36,846 nucleotides of DNA. Source: a virus. The notes below the pieces were generated by a model. It was not told where the DNA came from and ran no database searches. It was given only the letters and a program-made list of their open reading frames with translations. Location: the IMG/VR virus record IMGVR_UViG_3300025674_000146, positions 1-36,846 of that record. The stretch is one strand, 5' to 3'. The translations under genes were made by a program, and so were the position numbers. Below are positions 5,957 through 36,846 of the stretch, piece after piece (the first letter of the stretch is position 1; every line of letters begins with the position of its first letter).

Positions 5957-6229
5957 GTGCCCGAATTTCGGAACGCCACATACGAGACCGTCTACACCGA
6001 GCTAGACGAAGTGCTTGGCAAATCTGCCAGCGTCCACACCCTGTCGATCAGACTTGCGCTCCCCGAGCGCACCATCCGGTCGGCGCTGTCACACCTCTAC
6101 AAGCGGGGCCTCGCAGACAAGCTCACCGCTAACGTCTGGACCACCGACGTAGACGGCGAACTCCACCCCCACAAATGCCGCTGCGTCGAATGCGACCCCG
6201 ACTGGCACCGAGACCTGGCGAGGTTCTGA
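5957..6229 (+). CDS. Winged-helix-like DNA-binding protein
   Basis: This 90-residue protein has a helix-turn-helix pattern, HTLSIRLALPERTIRSALSH (about residues 28-47), followed by LYKRGLADKL and a strand, which together resemble a winged-helix domain. The C-terminal part (HKCRCVECDPDWH) holds Cys and His residues that could bind metal. The GTG start is chosen for its AAGGAG site; an in-frame ATG upstream has no such site. Its TGA overlaps the integrase ATG. As first gene of the integration operon it is the best candidate for a lysogeny regulator. No separate CI-like repressor is visible. Confidence 0.6.
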   Translation: MPEFRNATYETVYTELDEVLGKSASVHTLSIRLALPERTIRSALSHLYKRGLADKLTANVWTTDVDGELHPHKCRCVECDPDWHRDLARF

Positions 6230-7164
6230 TGCTGCGACCAGAGAACCTGCGACGCACCACCGACTCCGCCGAGAAGCGAGCGTGGGCAACCAACCCCTCG
6301 CTCGCCAAACTCATGGACGAATACATCACCTACCGGAGTGCGATGGGCGACTACAACGACCGGACCGCCATCACCGCTCGACGGCGGTTGATGAAGTTCG
6401 CCGCCCACACCGACAAACCCCTTGCCGACATAACCGAAAAGGATGTAAGGGACTGGCTCACGTCGATGGACGTGCGCCCCTCCACCCTCGCCGCCTGCTA
6501 CTCGGCGCTCAACACCTTCATGCAATGGTCGTGCGACGACGGCGTGATCGACCGGAACCCCTGCGTCAAAATCAAACGCCCCAAAGTCGTCGTCGGGGAG
6601 AACCGATCACTCACCGCCAGCGAGGTAGAAGCTGTCCGCCACGAGGCGCAACGGATGAGCGGAGTCAGAGGCCAACTGCTGTTCTCGCTGCTACACGGCG
6701 AGGCGCTGCGAGTCGCTGAAGTCGCCGCCATCCAAGTGGAAGACATTGACTTCGACAACAACTCGCTGTACGTCCGGGGCAAGGGCTACCAAGGGAAGCG
6801 TTCACGGCGCGTCCCGATGTCGCCCAACACCGCCAAGTTCGCCCGCCGCTACATGCGGCTCCGTAAGCACGGCGAACGGGGTCCCCTGCTTCGCAAGCAG
6901 AGCAGCGACGAGCCGTTGAACGTGTCCCGCATCGGAGAGATCGTGACCTCGTGGATGCAGCGGGCCGGTGTCAAGCAAGGCGCCTTTGACGGCGTGTCCG
7001 CTCACGCCCTGCGCCACACGGCAGCGGAGGAGATTGCCGCATCGACCGACAACGTGCGTATCGTTCAGGCGATGCTCGGCCACAAGAACCTCGCCACCAC
7101 CCAAACCTACCTGCGACGAGACGTTGACGGTTTGGACGACGTACAGGCGGCGCGCTTCTCGTGA
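6229..7164 (+). CDS. Tyrosine recombinase integrase
   Basis: This 311-residue protein integrates and excises the prophage. Residues about 25-105 form a SAM-like core-binding domain. The catalytic domain carries Arg161 (EALRVAEV), a probable Lys190 in the GKGYQGK hairpin, His259 and Arg262 (SAHALRHT), His285 (MLGHKN) and nucleophile Tyr294 (TTQTYLRR). All catalytic positions are intact. No N-terminal arm-binding domain is obvious, so it is closer in size to XerC/XerD. The ATG is coupled to the upstream gene (TGATG). The attachment site was not located, although the tRNA-like repeats at 33.4-35.4 kb are candidates. Confidence 0.93.
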   Translation: MLRPENLRRTTDSAEKRAWATNPSLAKLMDEYITYRSAMGDYNDRTAITARRRLMKFAAHTDKPLADITEKDVRDWLTSMDVRPSTLAACYSALNTFMQWSCDDGVIDRNPCVKIKRPKVVVGENRSLTASEVEAVRHEAQRMSGVRGQLLFSLLHGEALRVAEVAAIQVEDIDFDNNSLYVRGKGYQGKRSRRVPMSPNTAKFARRYMRLRKHGERGPLLRKQSSDEPLNVSRIGEIVTSWMQRAGVKQGAFDGVSAHALRHTAAEEIAASTDNVRIVQAMLGHKNLATTQTYLRRDVDGLDDVQAARFS

Positions 7165-32460: not shown

Positions 32461-33146
32461 GGTCCTTGCATATTACTTGGCGAAATAATTTGCGCTAGTC
32501 CTCCGTCCCCCAGTGGCCCGTCCCCCGGCATGACCCGGGTCCTTATTACTTGTGCGTGCTGCGCGTACCGGGTGCGGGAATGGTTCTCATTCCCATTACC
32601 CCCCGGGGCGTCCCACCGGACCCCCGGGGCACCCCCACCCCCCCTCTCCGGTACCTATCAGCGGCCCCGATACGGGCCGGGGGTGCTGGACCCTCTAAGG
32701 GGGGCGGCGGGGGGTGCCAGCGGCGGCCCTGAGCTACCGGCCCCGGACCAAGCCTCTCGCCCTCTAAGGGGGTCGGCGGGGGGGTGTTTCAGGATTTCTC
32801 AGATTTTTTTTTGCCTTGCAAACAAAGGGAAAACCCGGGTTCTCGGAGGATTTCCCAAGATTCCCCCCTTGACCCCTGCATGGCGCCATGCTTAAGTGGA
32901 GCTTGCCACCCCGGCAGCGGCTCCTAGAGCGGCTCCGACGGATCGGAAGACTTCGGCACATAGCGACCGGAGCCAGACCCTGCGAAGGTCAGCCACCTCT
33001 AAGGGGTGGCAACGGGGCCACGATGGTCCACCCGGTAGGGCAGCGGAGCGCTGAGAGAGGCGCAGGGCACCCAAGCAGCCGGGAGAGTCCCCGCCGAGTA
33101 GGCCGGGAACCTGTCCGCCCTCACCGGGCTAGGCACGTCGCACCCT
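32461..33146 (+). other. Gene-free GC-rich structured leader
   Basis: No convincing gene lies in these 686 bases. Frames exist but their composition is the product of C and G runs. Three stem-loops with a CTCTAAG apex are present: 32691-32716 and 32760-32786 (CCCTCTAAGGGGG followed by CGGCGGGGGG) and 32992-33010 (GCCACC/GGTGGC). The first two are a direct repeat. Between them lies GGCCCCGATACGGGCC-like palindromic sequence. A short T run (TTTTTTTTG, 32806-32813) separates the halves. It could be a long transcribed leader, a packaging site or an origin. Confidence 0.55.
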
Positions 33147-33210
33147 CTCCCCTTGTCTGGCCCTGATGACGGGCCACTGATGAGGCGCAGTCACGCCGAA
33201 ACCTAGGGAG
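33147..33210 (+). ncRNA. Hammerhead ribozyme, type III
   Basis: All conserved parts are here. The cleavage triplet GTC is at 33155-33157. Stem I is TGGCCC (33158-33163) with GGGCCA (33171-33176). The core is CTGATGA (33177-33183). Stem II is GGCG (33184-33187) with CGCC (33194-33197). The GAAA core is at 33198-33201, followed by C33202, which pairs with G33155. Loop I TGAC and loop II GTCA are perfectly complementary, matching the loop-loop contact of natural hammerheads. Stem III has a 3x3 internal loop, then CTCCC (33147-33151) with GGGAG (33206-33210). The expected cut is after C33157, giving a 5'-OH mRNA that starts with stem I. The weakest point is the interrupted stem III. Confidence 0.85.
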
Positions 33211-33217
33211 AAATACC

Positions 33218-33424
33218 ATGCACTACGGCTACACCTACAGCCCCGCTATCGGCTACAACACCGACCAGCGGTTGGAGCAGTTCACCTGCAAGGCCGACGC
33301 CTACGGCTACGCCTTCGCTTGCGAGTGGCTGATCGGACGGACCGCCCTTACCGGCTCCGCCCGAATCGAACCGGCCACCGCCGCCCGCATTCTGGAGCGG
33401 TACAACGAACGGCTCATTGGCTAA
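33218..33424 (+). CDS. Small hypothetical protein (68 aa), first operon gene
   Basis: This 68-residue protein starts MHYGYTYSPAIGYNTDQRLE. It is alpha/beta, with one amphipathic helix ending ARILERYNERLIG. The family is not recognised. The ATG lies 8 bases after GGGAG, the ribosome binding site that is also the 3' strand of hammerhead stem III. A tRNA-like element begins 8 bases after its stop. Confidence 0.65.
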   Translation: MHYGYTYSPAIGYNTDQRLEQFTCKADAYGYAFACEWLIGRTALTGSARIEPATAARILERYNERLIG

Positions 33425-33431
33425 GAGAGAC

Positions 33432-33491
33432 GGCGCAACGGTTCAACCCGGGTTCGATTCCCGGGGCGCCACGATCTGCCACAAGGGCAGA
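33432..33491 (+). repeat. tRNA-like minihelix plus hairpin, copy 1
   Basis: GGCGC (33432-33436) and GCGCC (33466-33470) enclose a T-arm: CCCGGG, loop TTCGATT, CCCGGG, as in tRNA GGUUCRAnnCC. The D and anticodon arms are missing, replaced by a short linker (AACGGTTCAA). A second hairpin follows, TCTGCC/GGCAGA (33475-33491), then AAGGGAG and the ATG of the ArdC-like gene. In this copy the second hairpin has U-A and an extra pair where copies 2-5 have C-G. Confidence 0.8.
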
Positions 33492-33512: not shown

Positions 33513-34427
33513 ATGAGCAAGCATGACGAATTGGCGCAGACGCTGGCCGAGACCCTCATCCGAGAGATCGAGAACAACCCCGGCCAGTGGTCCAAGCCCT
33601 GGAAGGCCGACGGCCTCGCCAGCTACCCCCACAACGTCACGACCAACAAGCCCTACACCGGCGGGAACGTCTTTGTCCTCTTCATGATCGGCAACGCCCG
33701 GGGCTACGCGACCGGGCAGTGGGCAACTTTCAAGCAGTGGAACGCCGCCGGCTGCAAGATTCGCAAGGGAGAGACCGGTACCAAGCTCGCCCGCTGGAAC
33801 GTCGTCTACAAGCACCCCGGCAAGGCCAAGAGCCAGAGCAAGGCGTGCTGCACCGAGTGCAAAAAGACGATGATCCCAACGACCTTCACCGTCTTTAACG
33901 CTGCCCAAGTCGAAGGCGACGTGACCGCCGCCCCTGACTTCCCCACCGGTCGCCCTGCGACCCTCCCGGGGGCCGATGAGGTCCGGGCCTACTTCCAGCG
34001 GGTCGGCGCTGATTGGCGAGAGGTCGCCAGCGACGGCGCCTACTACGCACCGGGCGGCGACTACATCGTCACCCCTAAGGCGGAGCAGTTCGCCACCGTC
34101 GGCGGGTTCGCCGGGACCGTGGCTCACGAGTTCACCCATTGGACCGGCCACGCCGACCGGGTGCCCCGGGACCTCTCCGGCAAGTTCGGGAGCGAGTCCT
34201 ACGCCTTGGAGGAGCTGGTAGCCGAGCTTGGCGCGGTCATCATCTGCAACTTCCTGGGGCTGGAGCATCAGCCGCTGGAGACGCACGCCGCCTACCTCGC
34301 CAACTGGCTGCAGGCTCTCAAGAGCGACGAGGGTCCCGCCCTTCTCTGGAAGGTGGCGGGCAAGGCTTCCAAGGCTGCCGAGTTCATCACGGACCGGGCC
34401 AGCGATGCCGAGGCGGTCGCCGCCTAA
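33513..34427 (+). CDS. ArdC-like antirestriction protein with metallopeptidase domain
   Basis: This 304-residue protein combines an N-terminal ssDNA-binding-type domain (residues 1-130, ArdC N-terminal, with WSKPWKADGLASYPHNVTTN) and a C-terminal zincin-like metallopeptidase. The zinc motif is HEFTHWTGH (205-213), with a second acidic site in SYALEELVAELGA. An extra CCTEC (112-116) may bind metal. ArdC-family proteins protect incoming DNA from type I restriction and are carried by plasmids and phages. The ATG at 33513 is used because AAGGGAG precedes it; an upstream frame runs through the tRNA-like repeat. It is the only large gene of this operon. Confidence 0.85.
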   Translation: MSKHDELAQTLAETLIREIENNPGQWSKPWKADGLASYPHNVTTNKPYTGGNVFVLFMIGNARGYATGQWATFKQWNAAGCKIRKGETGTKLARWNVVYKHPGKAKSQSKACCTECKKTMIPTTFTVFNAAQVEGDVTAAPDFPTGRPATLPGADEVRAYFQRVGADWREVASDGAYYAPGGDYIVTPKAEQFATVGGFAGTVAHEFTHWTGHADRVPRDLSGKFGSESYALEELVAELGAVIICNFLGLEHQPLETHAAYLANWLQALKSDEGPALLWKVAGKASKAAEFITDRASDAEAVAA

Positions 34428-34437
34428 AGAGTGACAC

Positions 34438-34496
34438 GGCGCAACGGTTCAACCCGGGTTCGATTCCCGGGGCGCCACGATCCGCAACAAGGCGGA
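34438..34496 (+). repeat. tRNA-like minihelix plus hairpin, copy 2
   Basis: The 39-nt minihelix (34438-34476) is identical to copy 1, with T-stem CCCGGG/CCCGGG and loop TTCGATT. The following hairpin is TCCGC (34481-34485) with GCGGA (34492-34496), which differs from copy 1 by a compensatory U-A to C-G exchange. AAGGAG and the ATG at 34519 follow. It starts 10 bases after the ArdC-like stop. Confidence 0.8.
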
Positions 34497-34518: not shown

Positions 34519-34704
34519 ATGACCATCGCCAACTACGGAGACGGCAACGGATACGACAGCGAGTGCGCCGACTGCGGCACCCCCGGCCTTGCCGGACGGT
34601 ACCCCGACGACATCGCCCGGGACCTTAGTCGGATGGGCTGGATCATCGAAGGCGAGGACGACGGCGTGACCTACGCCGACGCCTTCTGCCCCGCTTGCCA
34701 GTAG
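34519..34704 (+). CDS. Zinc-ribbon small protein (61 aa)
   Basis: This 61-residue protein starts MTIANYGDGNGYDSECADCG and has two CxxC knuckles, CADC (16-19) and CPAC near the C-terminus, with an acidic helix (DDIARDLSRMGWII) between them. The last gene of the operon (36475-36654) has a similar plan: a GWIIEGEDDG/GWIVDHDSYA segment between two CxxC pairs. They may be diverged copies. Probably binds zinc. Unknown target. Confidence 0.65.
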   Translation: MTIANYGDGNGYDSECADCGTPGLAGRYPDDIARDLSRMGWIIEGEDDGVTYADAFCPACQ

Positions 34705-34714
34705 GAGAGACAAC

Positions 34715-34773
34715 GGCGCAACGGTTCCTCTCGGGTTCGATTCCCGGGGCGCCACGATCCGCAACAAGGCGGA
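34715..34773 (+). repeat. tRNA-like minihelix plus hairpin, copy 3
   Basis: The minihelix (34715-34753) has T-stem CTCGGG/CCCGGG, so a U-G wobble replaces the C-G of copies 1 and 2, and the linker reads AACGGTTCCT. The T-loop TTCGATT and acceptor-like GGCGC/GCGCC are unchanged. The hairpin TCCGC/GCGGA (34758-34773) and AAGGAG follow. Confidence 0.8.
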
Positions 34774-34797: not shown

Positions 34798-34974
34798 ATG
34801 TACTTCCACATTTACAACAAGCGGCTCGGATACAGCCAGTACGTCACCACGGACCACGCTAAGGCCCTTTGGGTGCTGGACAACTGGTCCGAGAGTAGGG
34901 ACGGGGAGGAAGGAAACTACCGGCTCATCACCAGCAACGATCCGGACCTAGACTTCCGCACCCTCTACTTCTAA
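34798..34974 (+). CDS. Small hypothetical protein (58 aa)
   Basis: A 58-residue frame starts MYFHIYNKRLGYSQYVTTDH and ends DLDFRTLYF. It is aromatic-rich and compact, with strand-helix-strand features (KALWVLDNWSESRD). The ATG follows AAGGAG at proper spacing and the stop is followed by copy 4 of the repeat. Small aromatic-rich proteins of this type are common counter-defence candidates, but no family is recognised. Confidence 0.6.
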   Translation: MYFHIYNKRLGYSQYVTTDHAKALWVLDNWSESRDGEEGNYRLITSNDPDLDFRTLYF

Positions 34975-34981
34975 GAGACAC

Positions 34982-35040
34982 GGCGCAACGGTTCCTCTCG
35001 GGTTCGATTCCCGGGGCGCCACGATCCGCAACAAGGCGGA
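34982..35040 (+). repeat. tRNA-like minihelix plus hairpin, copy 4
   Basis: The minihelix (34982-35020) is identical to copy 3 (T-stem CTCGGG/CCCGGG). The hairpin is TCCGC/GCGGA (35025-35040). The spacer to AAGGAG has a few extra bases (CAACACCAC). It starts seven bases after the stop of the previous gene. Confidence 0.8.
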
Positions 35041-35064: not shown

Positions 35065-35343
35065 ATGACCATTACCAAGCGCAACGTCGAGGCAGCGTTC
35101 GGGCGGTACGTCAAGGCGTGCCACCGTCTCGGGCTTGTCCCCGAGGGCGCCAGCATCGGCCTAGAGTACGGGTCCAAGACTTACGGGCAGAGCTTCAAGG
35201 TCGTCACGATCGACCCCGACACGTCCGAGCGTCGCCCCCCGGCTGGCAGTATGCATATCGGCATGACCAAGCGGGAAGCGTTCGACCTACTGGCCGACCG
35301 AGCCAGCGTCCTAGAGGACGTGGCCCGAGCGATGGGGAAGTGA
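35065..35343 (+). CDS. Small hypothetical protein (92 aa)
   Basis: This 92-residue protein starts MTITKRNVEAAFGRYVKACH and has a helix, a beta segment (GQSFKVVTIDPDTSE) and a C-terminal helix (KREAFDLLADRASVLEDVAR). AAGGAG precedes its ATG. The layout resembles small DNA- or protein-binding accessory products. Family not recognised. Confidence 0.62.
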   Translation: MTITKRNVEAAFGRYVKACHRLGLVPEGASIGLEYGSKTYGQSFKVVTIDPDTSERRPPAGSMHIGMTKREAFDLLADRASVLEDVARAMGK

Positions 35344-35349
35344 GACAAC

Positions 35350-35408
35350 GGCGCAACGGTTCCTCTCGGGTTCGATTCCCGAGGCGCCACGATCCGCAAC
35401 AAGGCGGA
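35350..35408 (+). repeat. tRNA-like minihelix plus hairpin, copy 5
   Basis: The minihelix (35350-35388) has T-stem CTCGGG/CCCGAG, so the U-G wobble of copies 3 and 4 has become U-A. Across the copies the same pair reads C-G, U-G, U-A, the path of compensatory change. The hairpin TCCGC/GCGGA (35393-35408) and AAGGAG follow. Confidence 0.82.
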
Positions 35409-35428: not shown

Positions 35429-35566
35429 ATGAAGAACCCGGCTACCGCTCCCGCCCTCGAAGACTGGGGGTATGCGCTCTGTAAAGAATGCGGCAGAGCG
35501 TTTGATCTGCTCGACGCCGAGGACGCCGAGGACTGGTATCACGGGCACGATTGTGAGGCGTCATGA
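35429..35566 (+). CDS. Small Cys/acidic protein (45 aa)
   Basis: A 45-residue frame starts MKNPATAPALEDWGYALCKE and ends WYHGHDCEAS. The CKEC pair and the later HGHDC could form a zinc site. Its stop overlaps the next start (ATGA). AAGGAG precedes it. Unknown. Confidence 0.6.
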   Translation: MKNPATAPALEDWGYALCKECGRAFDLLDAEDAEDWYHGHDCEAS

Positions 35567-35682
35567 TGCGGCGAGTCTGCGACGCCTTGTTCGTCGCCAG
35601 CGTCACCGCCGCCCTGGTCCTCGCCGTCGTCGTTATCTACAACAACGTCACGGACCCGGCAGTCTGCTGGACTTCCTGCTGA
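35563..35682 (+). CDS. Small membrane protein (39 aa)
   Basis: A 39-residue frame starts MMRRVCDALFVASVTAALVL and continues AVVVIYNN, then ends AVCWTSC. It has a positively charged N-terminus, one transmembrane helix and a short cysteine-containing tail. It overlaps the gene before it by four bases, so it has no repeat in between. A small membrane effector is possible. Unknown. Confidence 0.6.
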   Translation: MMRRVCDALFVASVTAALVLAVVVIYNNVTDPAVCWTSC

Positions 35683-35745
35683 ACCGTGCGGGTGACCTAC
35701 CCCTTCCTCTCCCTGAGGGGGTAGGCATCCCGGACTGTTCAGTCC
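35683..35745 (+). repeat. Second intergenic RNA element, copy 1
   Basis: After TGA comes ACCGTGCGG. A stem CGGG (35689-35692)/CCCG (35729-35732) encloses hairpin CCTACCCC/GGGGTAGG (35696-35725), and GGACTG/CAGTCC (35732-35745) follows. Compared with copy 2 the CGGG/CCCG pair is compensatory with CGGA/TCCG. AAGGAG and the next ATG follow. Confidence 0.65.
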
Positions 35746-35766: not shown

Positions 35767-35931
35767 ATGAAAAACCATATGCATGACTTCCCGATTGAGT
35801 ACCTAGAGGAAATCCGCGACACCGTGCGCGGTGAACTACTCAAGCCGCACCTACTGACCGTCAAGCAACAAGCCGAAAACGGCATCGCACTAGCGGAAGT
35901 TACCGCCGAACTGGAACGGCGCGAGCGCTGA
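35767..35931 (+). CDS. Small helical protein (54 aa)
   Basis: A 54-residue frame starts MKNHMHDFPIEYLEEIRDTV and continues with charged helices to ELERRER. An AAGGAG site precedes it. The mix of acidic and basic helices suggests a dimer or protein inhibitor. Unknown. Confidence 0.6.
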   Translation: MKNHMHDFPIEYLEEIRDTVRGELLKPHLLTVKQQAENGIALAEVTAELERRER

Positions 35932-35987
35932 ACCGTGCGGATGTCCTACCCCCTTCGAGGGGGTAGGCGTTCCGGACTGTTCAGTCC
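35932..35987 (+). repeat. Second intergenic RNA element, copy 2
   Basis: This copy has CGGA (35938-35941)/TCCG (35971-35974) around a long hairpin CCTACCCCCT/AGGGGGTAGG (35945-35967), then GGACTG/CAGTCC (35974-35987). The stop codon of the gene before it merges with the element (TGAACCGTGCGG), as in copy 1. AAGGAG and the ATG at 36011 follow. Confidence 0.65.
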
Positions 35988-36475: not shown

Positions 36476-36654
36476 TGGCTATGCATGTGGAGTTCGCCAT
36501 CACTTGCGACGTTTGCTATCGACAGCACGACGACGCTGACTTCTATCCCGACCAAGCCAAGCAGAGAGCGCGTGCCGACGGGTGGATTGTCGATCACGAT
36601 TCCTACGCCCCTACTTGTGCCGCTACCTGTCCACGGTGCCGAGAGGAGGAGTAA
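36475..36654 (+). CDS. Zinc-ribbon small protein (59 aa), last operon gene
   Basis: A 59-residue frame starts MAMHVEFAITCDVCYRQHDD and has CDVC (11-14) and a C-terminal CPRC. It shares the two-knuckle plan and a GWIV segment with the 61-residue zinc-ribbon gene at 34519. ATGA couples it to the previous gene, and a GTG three bases earlier is an alternative start. A terminator follows 13 bases after the stop. Confidence 0.6.
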   Translation: MAMHVEFAITCDVCYRQHDDADFYPDQAKQRARADGWIVDHDSYAPTCAATCPRCREEE

Positions 36655-36666
36655 AAGGTGCGGGTT

Positions 36667-36690
36667 GTCTCCGACTGGTGGGTCGGAGAC
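36667..36690 (+). terminator. Stem-loop after the accessory operon
   Basis: GTCTCCGAC (36667-36675) pairs perfectly with GTCGGAGAC (36682-36690) around a 6-base loop. A T run (TTTTTACG) lies about 10 bases downstream. It follows the last small gene and faces the convergent early operon, so termination is likely. The first arm recurs without its partner at 36726. Confidence 0.6.
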
Positions 36691-36714
36691 TTCCCCGGAC
36701 TTTTTACGCCGCCG

Positions 36715-36840
36715 CCAGCGGGGTTGTCTCCGACTGGTGGTAGGGTGAGTTCGCGTGGCCTCCGTGCCCGGTCTGCTTTTCCTTTCTCCTTTGGGCGGGC
36801 TGGGGTGCGGGGGCCACGCCCATTTTTGCGCCCATTTTTG
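36715..36840. repeat. Terminal direct repeat, right copy
   Basis: These 126 bases equal positions 1-126. The last six bases of the window (36841-36846) do not match the left copy; here the CCCATTTTTGCG tandem unit continues. The copy number of this short repeat may vary in the population. Confidence 0.9.
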
Positions 36841-36846
36841 CGCCCG

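Follow-up and report, generated by a model that had tools for sequence, protein, structure and literature searches.

A type III hammerhead ribozyme stands at the head of an accessory operon of the virus IMGVR_UViG_3300025674_000146, the outer part of its stem III contains the Shine-Dalgarno (SD) sequence of the first operon gene, and the junctions that follow are punctuated by a tRNA-like structure for which the label TLS was coined in this analysis. The ribozyme itself is of a known kind; what is new is the SD-containing stem III together with the TLS operon, and these two features are more interesting than the ribozyme alone. On balance, it seems probable that one transcript is divided here by RNA devices located at the gene junctions, whereby the hammerhead would free the first SD and RNase P and/or RNase Z would cut the TLS.

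The window, i.e., the whole stretch of 36,846 nucleotides that was analysed, is the entire virus record. Its ends are nearly identical (1-127 and 36720-36846, an overlap of about 127 nt), which would fit a genome that is circular or terminally redundant. The hammerhead (33146-33211, plus strand) lies 5' of all the plus-strand operon genes, and its position therefore fits the operon 5' end proposed in an earlier note on this DNA. It is preceded by a divergent intergenic region of about 686 nt that reaches from the divergent terminase gene to the hammerhead and is noncoding according to the list of open reading frames (32461-33145, plus strand). This region must contain the promoter as well as the leader that would be lost on cleavage; no sigma-70-like site is seen in it, and it has no significant fold (z -1.26). 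Downstream, and always on the plus strand, the operon consists of gene 1 for 68 amino acids (33218-33424), TLS 1 (33430-33476), a gene for an ArdC-type antirestriction protein of 304 amino acids (33513-34427; Pfam ArdcN 2.1e-27, MPTase-PolyVal 6.1e-36; PHROG 7245), TLS 2 (34436-34482), a 61-aa gene (34519-34704), TLS 3 (34713-34759), a 58-aa gene (34798-34974), TLS 4 (34980-35026), a 92-aa gene (35065-35343; PHROG 24182), TLS 5 (35348-35394), and two overlapping small genes (35429-35682) for 45 amino acids and for a putative membrane peptide of 39 amino acids (35563-35682). Long hairpins occupy the next two junctions (copy 1, 35678-35743, z -5.67; copy 2, 35927-35986, z -4.92, repeat families D4 and D8; both plus strand). 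The genes had been described as of the antidefence type, which is shown for ArdC only; gene 1 and the other small genes are without known function. A blastn search of INPHARED with the operon head gives no match, and the relatives of the window ArdC and terminase in that collection are distant ones only.

All parts of the complete type III hammerhead that had been claimed for 33147-33210 are present in the sequence, and its stems and loop pairing covary. The core segments CTGATGA (33177-33183) and GAAA (33198-33201) are accompanied by the cleavage triplet GTC (33155-33157), which conforms to NUH and lies between stems III and I, with cleavage expected after C33157. Stem I (TGGCCC/GGGCCA, 33158-33163/33171-33176) and stem II (GGCG/CGCC, 33184-33187/33194-33197) are perfect, and loops I (TGATGAC, 33164-33170) and II (CAGTCA, 33188-33193) are complementary as had been noted, 4 bp being possible between TGAC (33167-33170) and GTCA (33190-33193). 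Stem III is indeed interrupted by a 3x3 internal loop (33152-33154/33203-33205), which separates an inner part of 2 bp (T33156-A33201 and G33155-C33202) from an outer part of 6 bp (TCTCCC/GGGAGA, 33146-33151/33206-33211). The assignment to type III follows from the core, the NUH triplet, three stems with stem III open, the loop contact, and a significant model match, all of which are found (every feature on the plus strand).

This match came from the Infernal search of the plus strand with Rfam models that had been suggested as a check: Hammerhead_3 (RF00008) matches at 33150-33207 with 32.7 bits and an E value of 5.4e-7 over the whole record, in which it is the sole type III match. For the same 32.7-bit match, the E value is 3.7e-5 when 601 bp are compared with all 4227 Rfam families. 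The gathering score of Hammerhead_3, which serves as annotation cut-off, is 48.5 and thus a default Rfam scan misses the window hammerhead; at the gathering threshold no family is listed for the window. Further type III hammerheads from phages, although well formed, score 44.3-47.3 bits and thus also less than 48.5. In an almost gapless alignment of four distinct sequences, i.e., one from the window and three from hammerheads that other phages have in this position, 98.2% of the cells are paired over 14 pairs, and 8 of these 14 pairs are altered on both sides. The covariation score of 0.869 compares with 0.272 for shuffled alignments (reached in 0/500) and with 0.119 or less when the alignment is slid. 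Covariation extends to the loop contact, as the third loop-loop pair (33169-33191 in the window) is A-U, U-A, or C-G across the hammerheads. Minimum free energy folding favours another structure by 2.4 kcal/mol (-27.2 versus -24.8 kcal/mol for the hammerhead, the loop-loop contact being excluded). As judged by sequence and covariation, the window hammerhead is confirmed as a genuine hammerhead of type III.

Five successive junctions after gene 1 bear an 86-nt repeat. Its TLS folds into a 5-bp acceptor stem, a D-loop-like AACGGTT segment, and a 6-bp T-arm with a TTCGATT loop, followed by ACGA, and 3' of each copy in the window a small hairpin, an SD, and an ATG follow in this order. The covariance model R1 scores the five copies at 63.8, 63.8, 60.4, 60.4, and 62.5 bits, respectively, and the next best match in the window at 11.5 bits. 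Among 49 aligned sequences from many phages, 95.7% of the pair cells are paired, 10 of the 11 pairs show changes on both sides, and double changes occur in 211 cells; the covariation score is 0.981 versus 0.213 on shuffling (0/500) and 0.12-0.24 on sliding. RNAalifold recovers the same structure unprompted. This covariation indicates that TLS is clearly selected as an RNA structure. The invariance of its loops is in part a matter of construction, because the search patterns fixed the loops. An ordinary tRNA has a 12-bp helix; in TLS the helix, after which ACG follows, comprises 11 bp in 45 of 59 elements and 12 bp in the other 14. TLS is not a complete tRNA, since it has no cloverleaf or anticodon arm, 10-12 nt standing where the D and anticodon arms would be, and ARAGORN finds no complete tRNA in the window. 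It is not a tmRNA either (20-21 bits versus a gathering score of 47; none found by ARAGORN in the window). Rfam has no match to TLS at cut-off: the window scan at the gathering threshold is empty, and elsewhere only weaker matches occur, with sub-threshold ones to RF00023 and RF01684. TLS is therefore a candidate for a new RNA family.

Two explanations would deprive these elements of their meaning as RNA. A score under the Rfam cut-off and a short inner stem III might be taken as signs of a chance or decayed hammerhead motif, but the E value in the record, the intact core, the compensatory changes seen in the stems and between the loops, and the presence of hammerheads at the same place in other phages make this very improbable. 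As to the tRNA-like repeats, covariation rules out that they are simply DNA repeats or attachment sites. More broadly, they might be thought to act at the DNA level, as remnants of integrase attachment or as sites of cassette shuffling, given that attachment sites are commonly situated at tRNA 3' ends, that a tyrosine integrase gene is encoded in the window (6175-7164), and that the gene order of the window differs from that of the related contig L038. A DNA site, however, would conserve its sequence, whereas the TLS stems vary between copies with compensatory changes, and all copies have one orientation and lie just before a start codon, so that a function at the DNA level would come as a great surprise.

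TLS are found on the coding strand only and sit between stop and start codons, which makes them gene-junction punctuation by position. In a survey of 68 distinct elements, an upstream stop codon was found for 59, at a median of 9 nt before the start of the TLS model, and a start codon for 58, at a median of 43.5 nt after the discriminator A; a second hairpin lies between TLS and start in 53 of the 68. For the most part, the gene annotations of Fowlmouth and Predator agree with these spacings between stop, TLS, and start. In Fowlmouth (L105, NC_048734.1) the annotated genes 43 and 47 overlap TLS, and their true starts are probably located further downstream.

TLS is widespread among phages. L038, which shares about 76% DNA identity with the window in the common parts, has six clear copies whose stems differ yet are complementary. 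A first search pattern with fixed stems gave no matches; with loop-only patterns TLS was found in many phage contigs, among them the mycobacteriophages Predator, Fowlmouth, Cuke, and MaryV/Cosmo, and model R1 finds 1-11 matches per record in 19 phage records. In genomes of Glycomyces, TLS copies closely follow an FtsK-like gene (L039:6285-6697, L045, L060, L068), so that the element seems to be present also in what may be integrative elements. Many of the pattern matches in genome contigs are ordinary or odd tRNAs and not TLS. That TLS is a host chromosomal element was tentatively rejected: only 1 of 394 genomes in one class and 1 of 295 in a second, with few candidates scored per genome, had a match, which in each case was the centre genome itself.

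The hammerhead and TLS occur together in other phages as well. A search for hammerheads followed by an SD and a separate search for TLS variants both returned contig L141. Its noncoding leader is followed by a hammerhead of type III (28.7 bits), the first gene, and four TLS, and beyond an inner stem of 2 bp and a bulge the SD TGAGGAGG pairs with CCTCCTCA. The same layout is found in L253, and a similar one in L085, L093, and L236. The hammerheads of the latter three (L085 around 3090, L093 around 4724, L236 around 4150) are variants in which the core reads CTGAAGA and stem II is preceded by an additional U. Thus, five marine contigs combine a type III hammerhead, an SD in an interrupted stem III, and a TLS operon. 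As the heads of these five are homologous to one another, they count as one independent recurrence and not as five; as they have no recognisable relation to the window, the arrangement exists in at least two lineages. In L092, one TLS is accompanied by what are, by descriptor, two type I hammerheads, one of which is scored by Rfam. No type III hammerhead is detected by Rfam in most TLS phages and the two devices therefore are usually apart; no TLS is found in the hammerhead-bearing contigs L008, L026, and L033-L037. In the unrelated contig L008, a type I hammerhead (1116-1168, 28.4 bits) lies a short way 5' of an ArdC gene.

In the window, the 3' strand of outer stem III (GGGAGA, 33206-33211) is at the same time the SD of the gene at 33218-33424, and a cut after 33157 would therefore free the SD from its partner TCTCCC (33146-33151). 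The predicted probability that the SD is unpaired rises from 0.20 in the uncleaved RNA to 0.57 in the 3' cleavage product. We propose that the operon would be transcribed as a single RNA and that the hammerhead would cut after C33157, removing the noncoding leader and leaving an mRNA with a structured 5' end, i.e., stem I with a 5'-OH. The 5' strand of outer stem III could then depart and the SD of the first gene would become accessible. Within the operon, host RNase P most likely would cut TLS on the 5' side and RNase Z possibly after the A, giving rise to short mRNAs with a stable structure at the 5' end; at the two later junctions a long hairpin is present in place of TLS. RNase Z fits an element that ends in A without CCA, which is why its participation seems possible. 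Cleavage by RNase P or Z is not assured, because the helix is mostly of 11 instead of 12 bp and the end is ACG and not CCA; with a helix one pair shorter than that of tRNA, the elbow might also be recognised by some other factor. RNase P suggests itself, since tRNA-like structures in phage RNAs and in operon transcripts are known to be cut by it; its substrates comprise polycistronic mRNAs as well as RNAs of phages (PMC11143913), and examples cited there include the his operon, the C4 RNA of phages P1/P7, and phage M3 RNA.

The two parts of this proposal have to be weighed against simpler readings. The hammerhead might be an ordinary phage ribozyme that trims a 5' end, its stem III extending into the nearest sequence and including the SD incidentally. 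This is quite possible, though less than probable: in 25 type III hammerheads from phages the core is closely followed by an SD, which in the majority stays free behind a stem III of 3-5 bp, and 65 of 500 shuffles of the upstream sequence of the window mask the SD equally well, so that masking in the window, taken as a stand-alone signal, is not significant. Fully paired SDs, however, occur in 4 of the 25 hammerheads, the window (counted through L032, which is the same virus) being one of them, and are more common than expected from permuted 5' strands (1.2, p 0.015). Also, the hammerheads at the head of the five marine TLS operons all have CCTCCTC/GAGGAGG and an inner stem that is short and interrupted. 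Masking of the SD by stem III is therefore plausible, chiefly on account of its recurrence. The TLS, in turn, might remain uncut in a polycistronic mRNA and serve as 5'-stabilising or ribosome-recruiting structures or as decoys of tRNA-binding proteins. The constant part of TLS is the T-loop with the GG segment, i.e., the tRNA elbow, and its distance to the start codon is fixed, as such a role might require, but the spacing between stop and TLS is equally regular, TLS, long hairpin, and hammerhead take similar positions at junctions, and cutting is the only role known for the hammerhead. We thus regard uncut TLS as rather unlikely and favour the division of the transcript at these sites.

In organelle transcripts, for instance those of mitochondria, tRNA structures between genes mark the cut points. 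The TLS operon resembles such tRNA punctuation in having tRNA structures between genes, whereas its elements are minimal tRNA mimics, not working tRNAs, and reside in phages. In engineered hammerhead switches the SD is masked in a ribozyme stem and freed by cleavage; the window hammerhead differs in being natural and in being known here without a ligand, and the freeing of its SD is predicted. TLS shares with the tRNA-like domain of tmRNA (RF00023) and with MALAT1 mascRNA (RF01684) an acceptor stem, a D-like segment, and a T-arm, all being partial tRNAs, but it is situated between mRNA genes, has a helix of 11-12 bp and no anticodon stem, ends in ACGA, and lacks a tag region. The his operon, C4, and M3 RNAs processed by RNase P also present a tRNA-like structure in phage or operon RNA, whereas TLS is a uniform element repeated at successive junctions for which the substrate role is putative. 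No earlier description of a tRNA-like intercistronic phage element was found in the open-access literature.

The earlier note had regarded a hammerhead in this position as notable, and the novelty of the ribozyme is less than it implied, given that prophage hammerheads adjacent to antirestriction genes were published in 2011; the SD within stem III and the tRNA-like elements had escaped that note. Clustered hammerheads that flank single prophage genes are active in vitro and in E. coli, ardA lies directly downstream of a hammerhead in three Legionella strains and is flanked by ribozymes in Agrobacterium, and loop I-loop II contacts of this kind are said to be common (Perreault 2011, PMC3088659). 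The window hammerhead is like these prophage type III hammerheads (RF00008) in core, triplet, stems, loop pairing, and accessory or antirestriction neighbours. Unlike in them, the SD of the following gene lies within its outer stem III, past the internal loop, and it heads an operon with tRNA-like elements at the later junctions. The purpose of phage hammerheads has been open since 2011, and an operon with a second RNA device offers a concrete and testable one, namely that a long mRNA would be split into separately translated pieces, by the ribozyme at the head and by host tRNA-processing enzymes elsewhere. As TLS is present in culturable mycobacteriophages (Predator, Fowlmouth, MaryV/Cosmo), M. 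smegmatis offers a setting in which the questions about both RNases can be addressed. If the proposal is true, the TLS operon would be a phage form of mitochondrial tRNA punctuation, and the SD-masking stem III a natural version of the engineered ribozyme switch.

Directly upstream of the hammerhead, a leader RNA of about 250 nt is conserved in L141 (11690-11945, minus strand), L085 (3120-3377, minus strand), L093 (4750-4990, minus strand), and L253 (12040-12290, plus strand); two of these leaders were compared with Rfam and have no match. The leader has a multibranched consensus fold, closed by a helix GAGGAGGA/TCCTCCTC in which the otherwise SD-masking strand takes part. Because the two pairings compete for this strand, the formation of stem III could depend on how the leader folds. 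A comparable strand exchange with a 7-nt decoy in the window (33081-33087) found no support, as a similar decoy arises in 279 of 2000 shuffles and the one in the window is not predicted to pair on folding. The long hairpin 3' of the 39-aa gene of the window corresponds to a TLS 3' of its apparent counterpart in L038 (2106-2222, the resemblance being judged by eye), which suggests that TLS and long hairpin can replace each other at junctions; the two long hairpins possibly are sites of the RNase III type. A more far-reaching idea, to which we give little credence, is that some phages possess a full system of RNA punctuation, with hammerheads, tRNA mimics, and long hairpins as cutters that can stand in for one another, and with the head hammerhead as a leader-governed switch that cleaves to translate. 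If the leader indeed acts in this way, it would represent a natural leader-controlled hammerhead. Finally, a strong hairpin in the window 3' of the last operon gene (36653-36704, z -5.1), the feet of which are AAAAGG and CTTTTT, possibly is a terminator.
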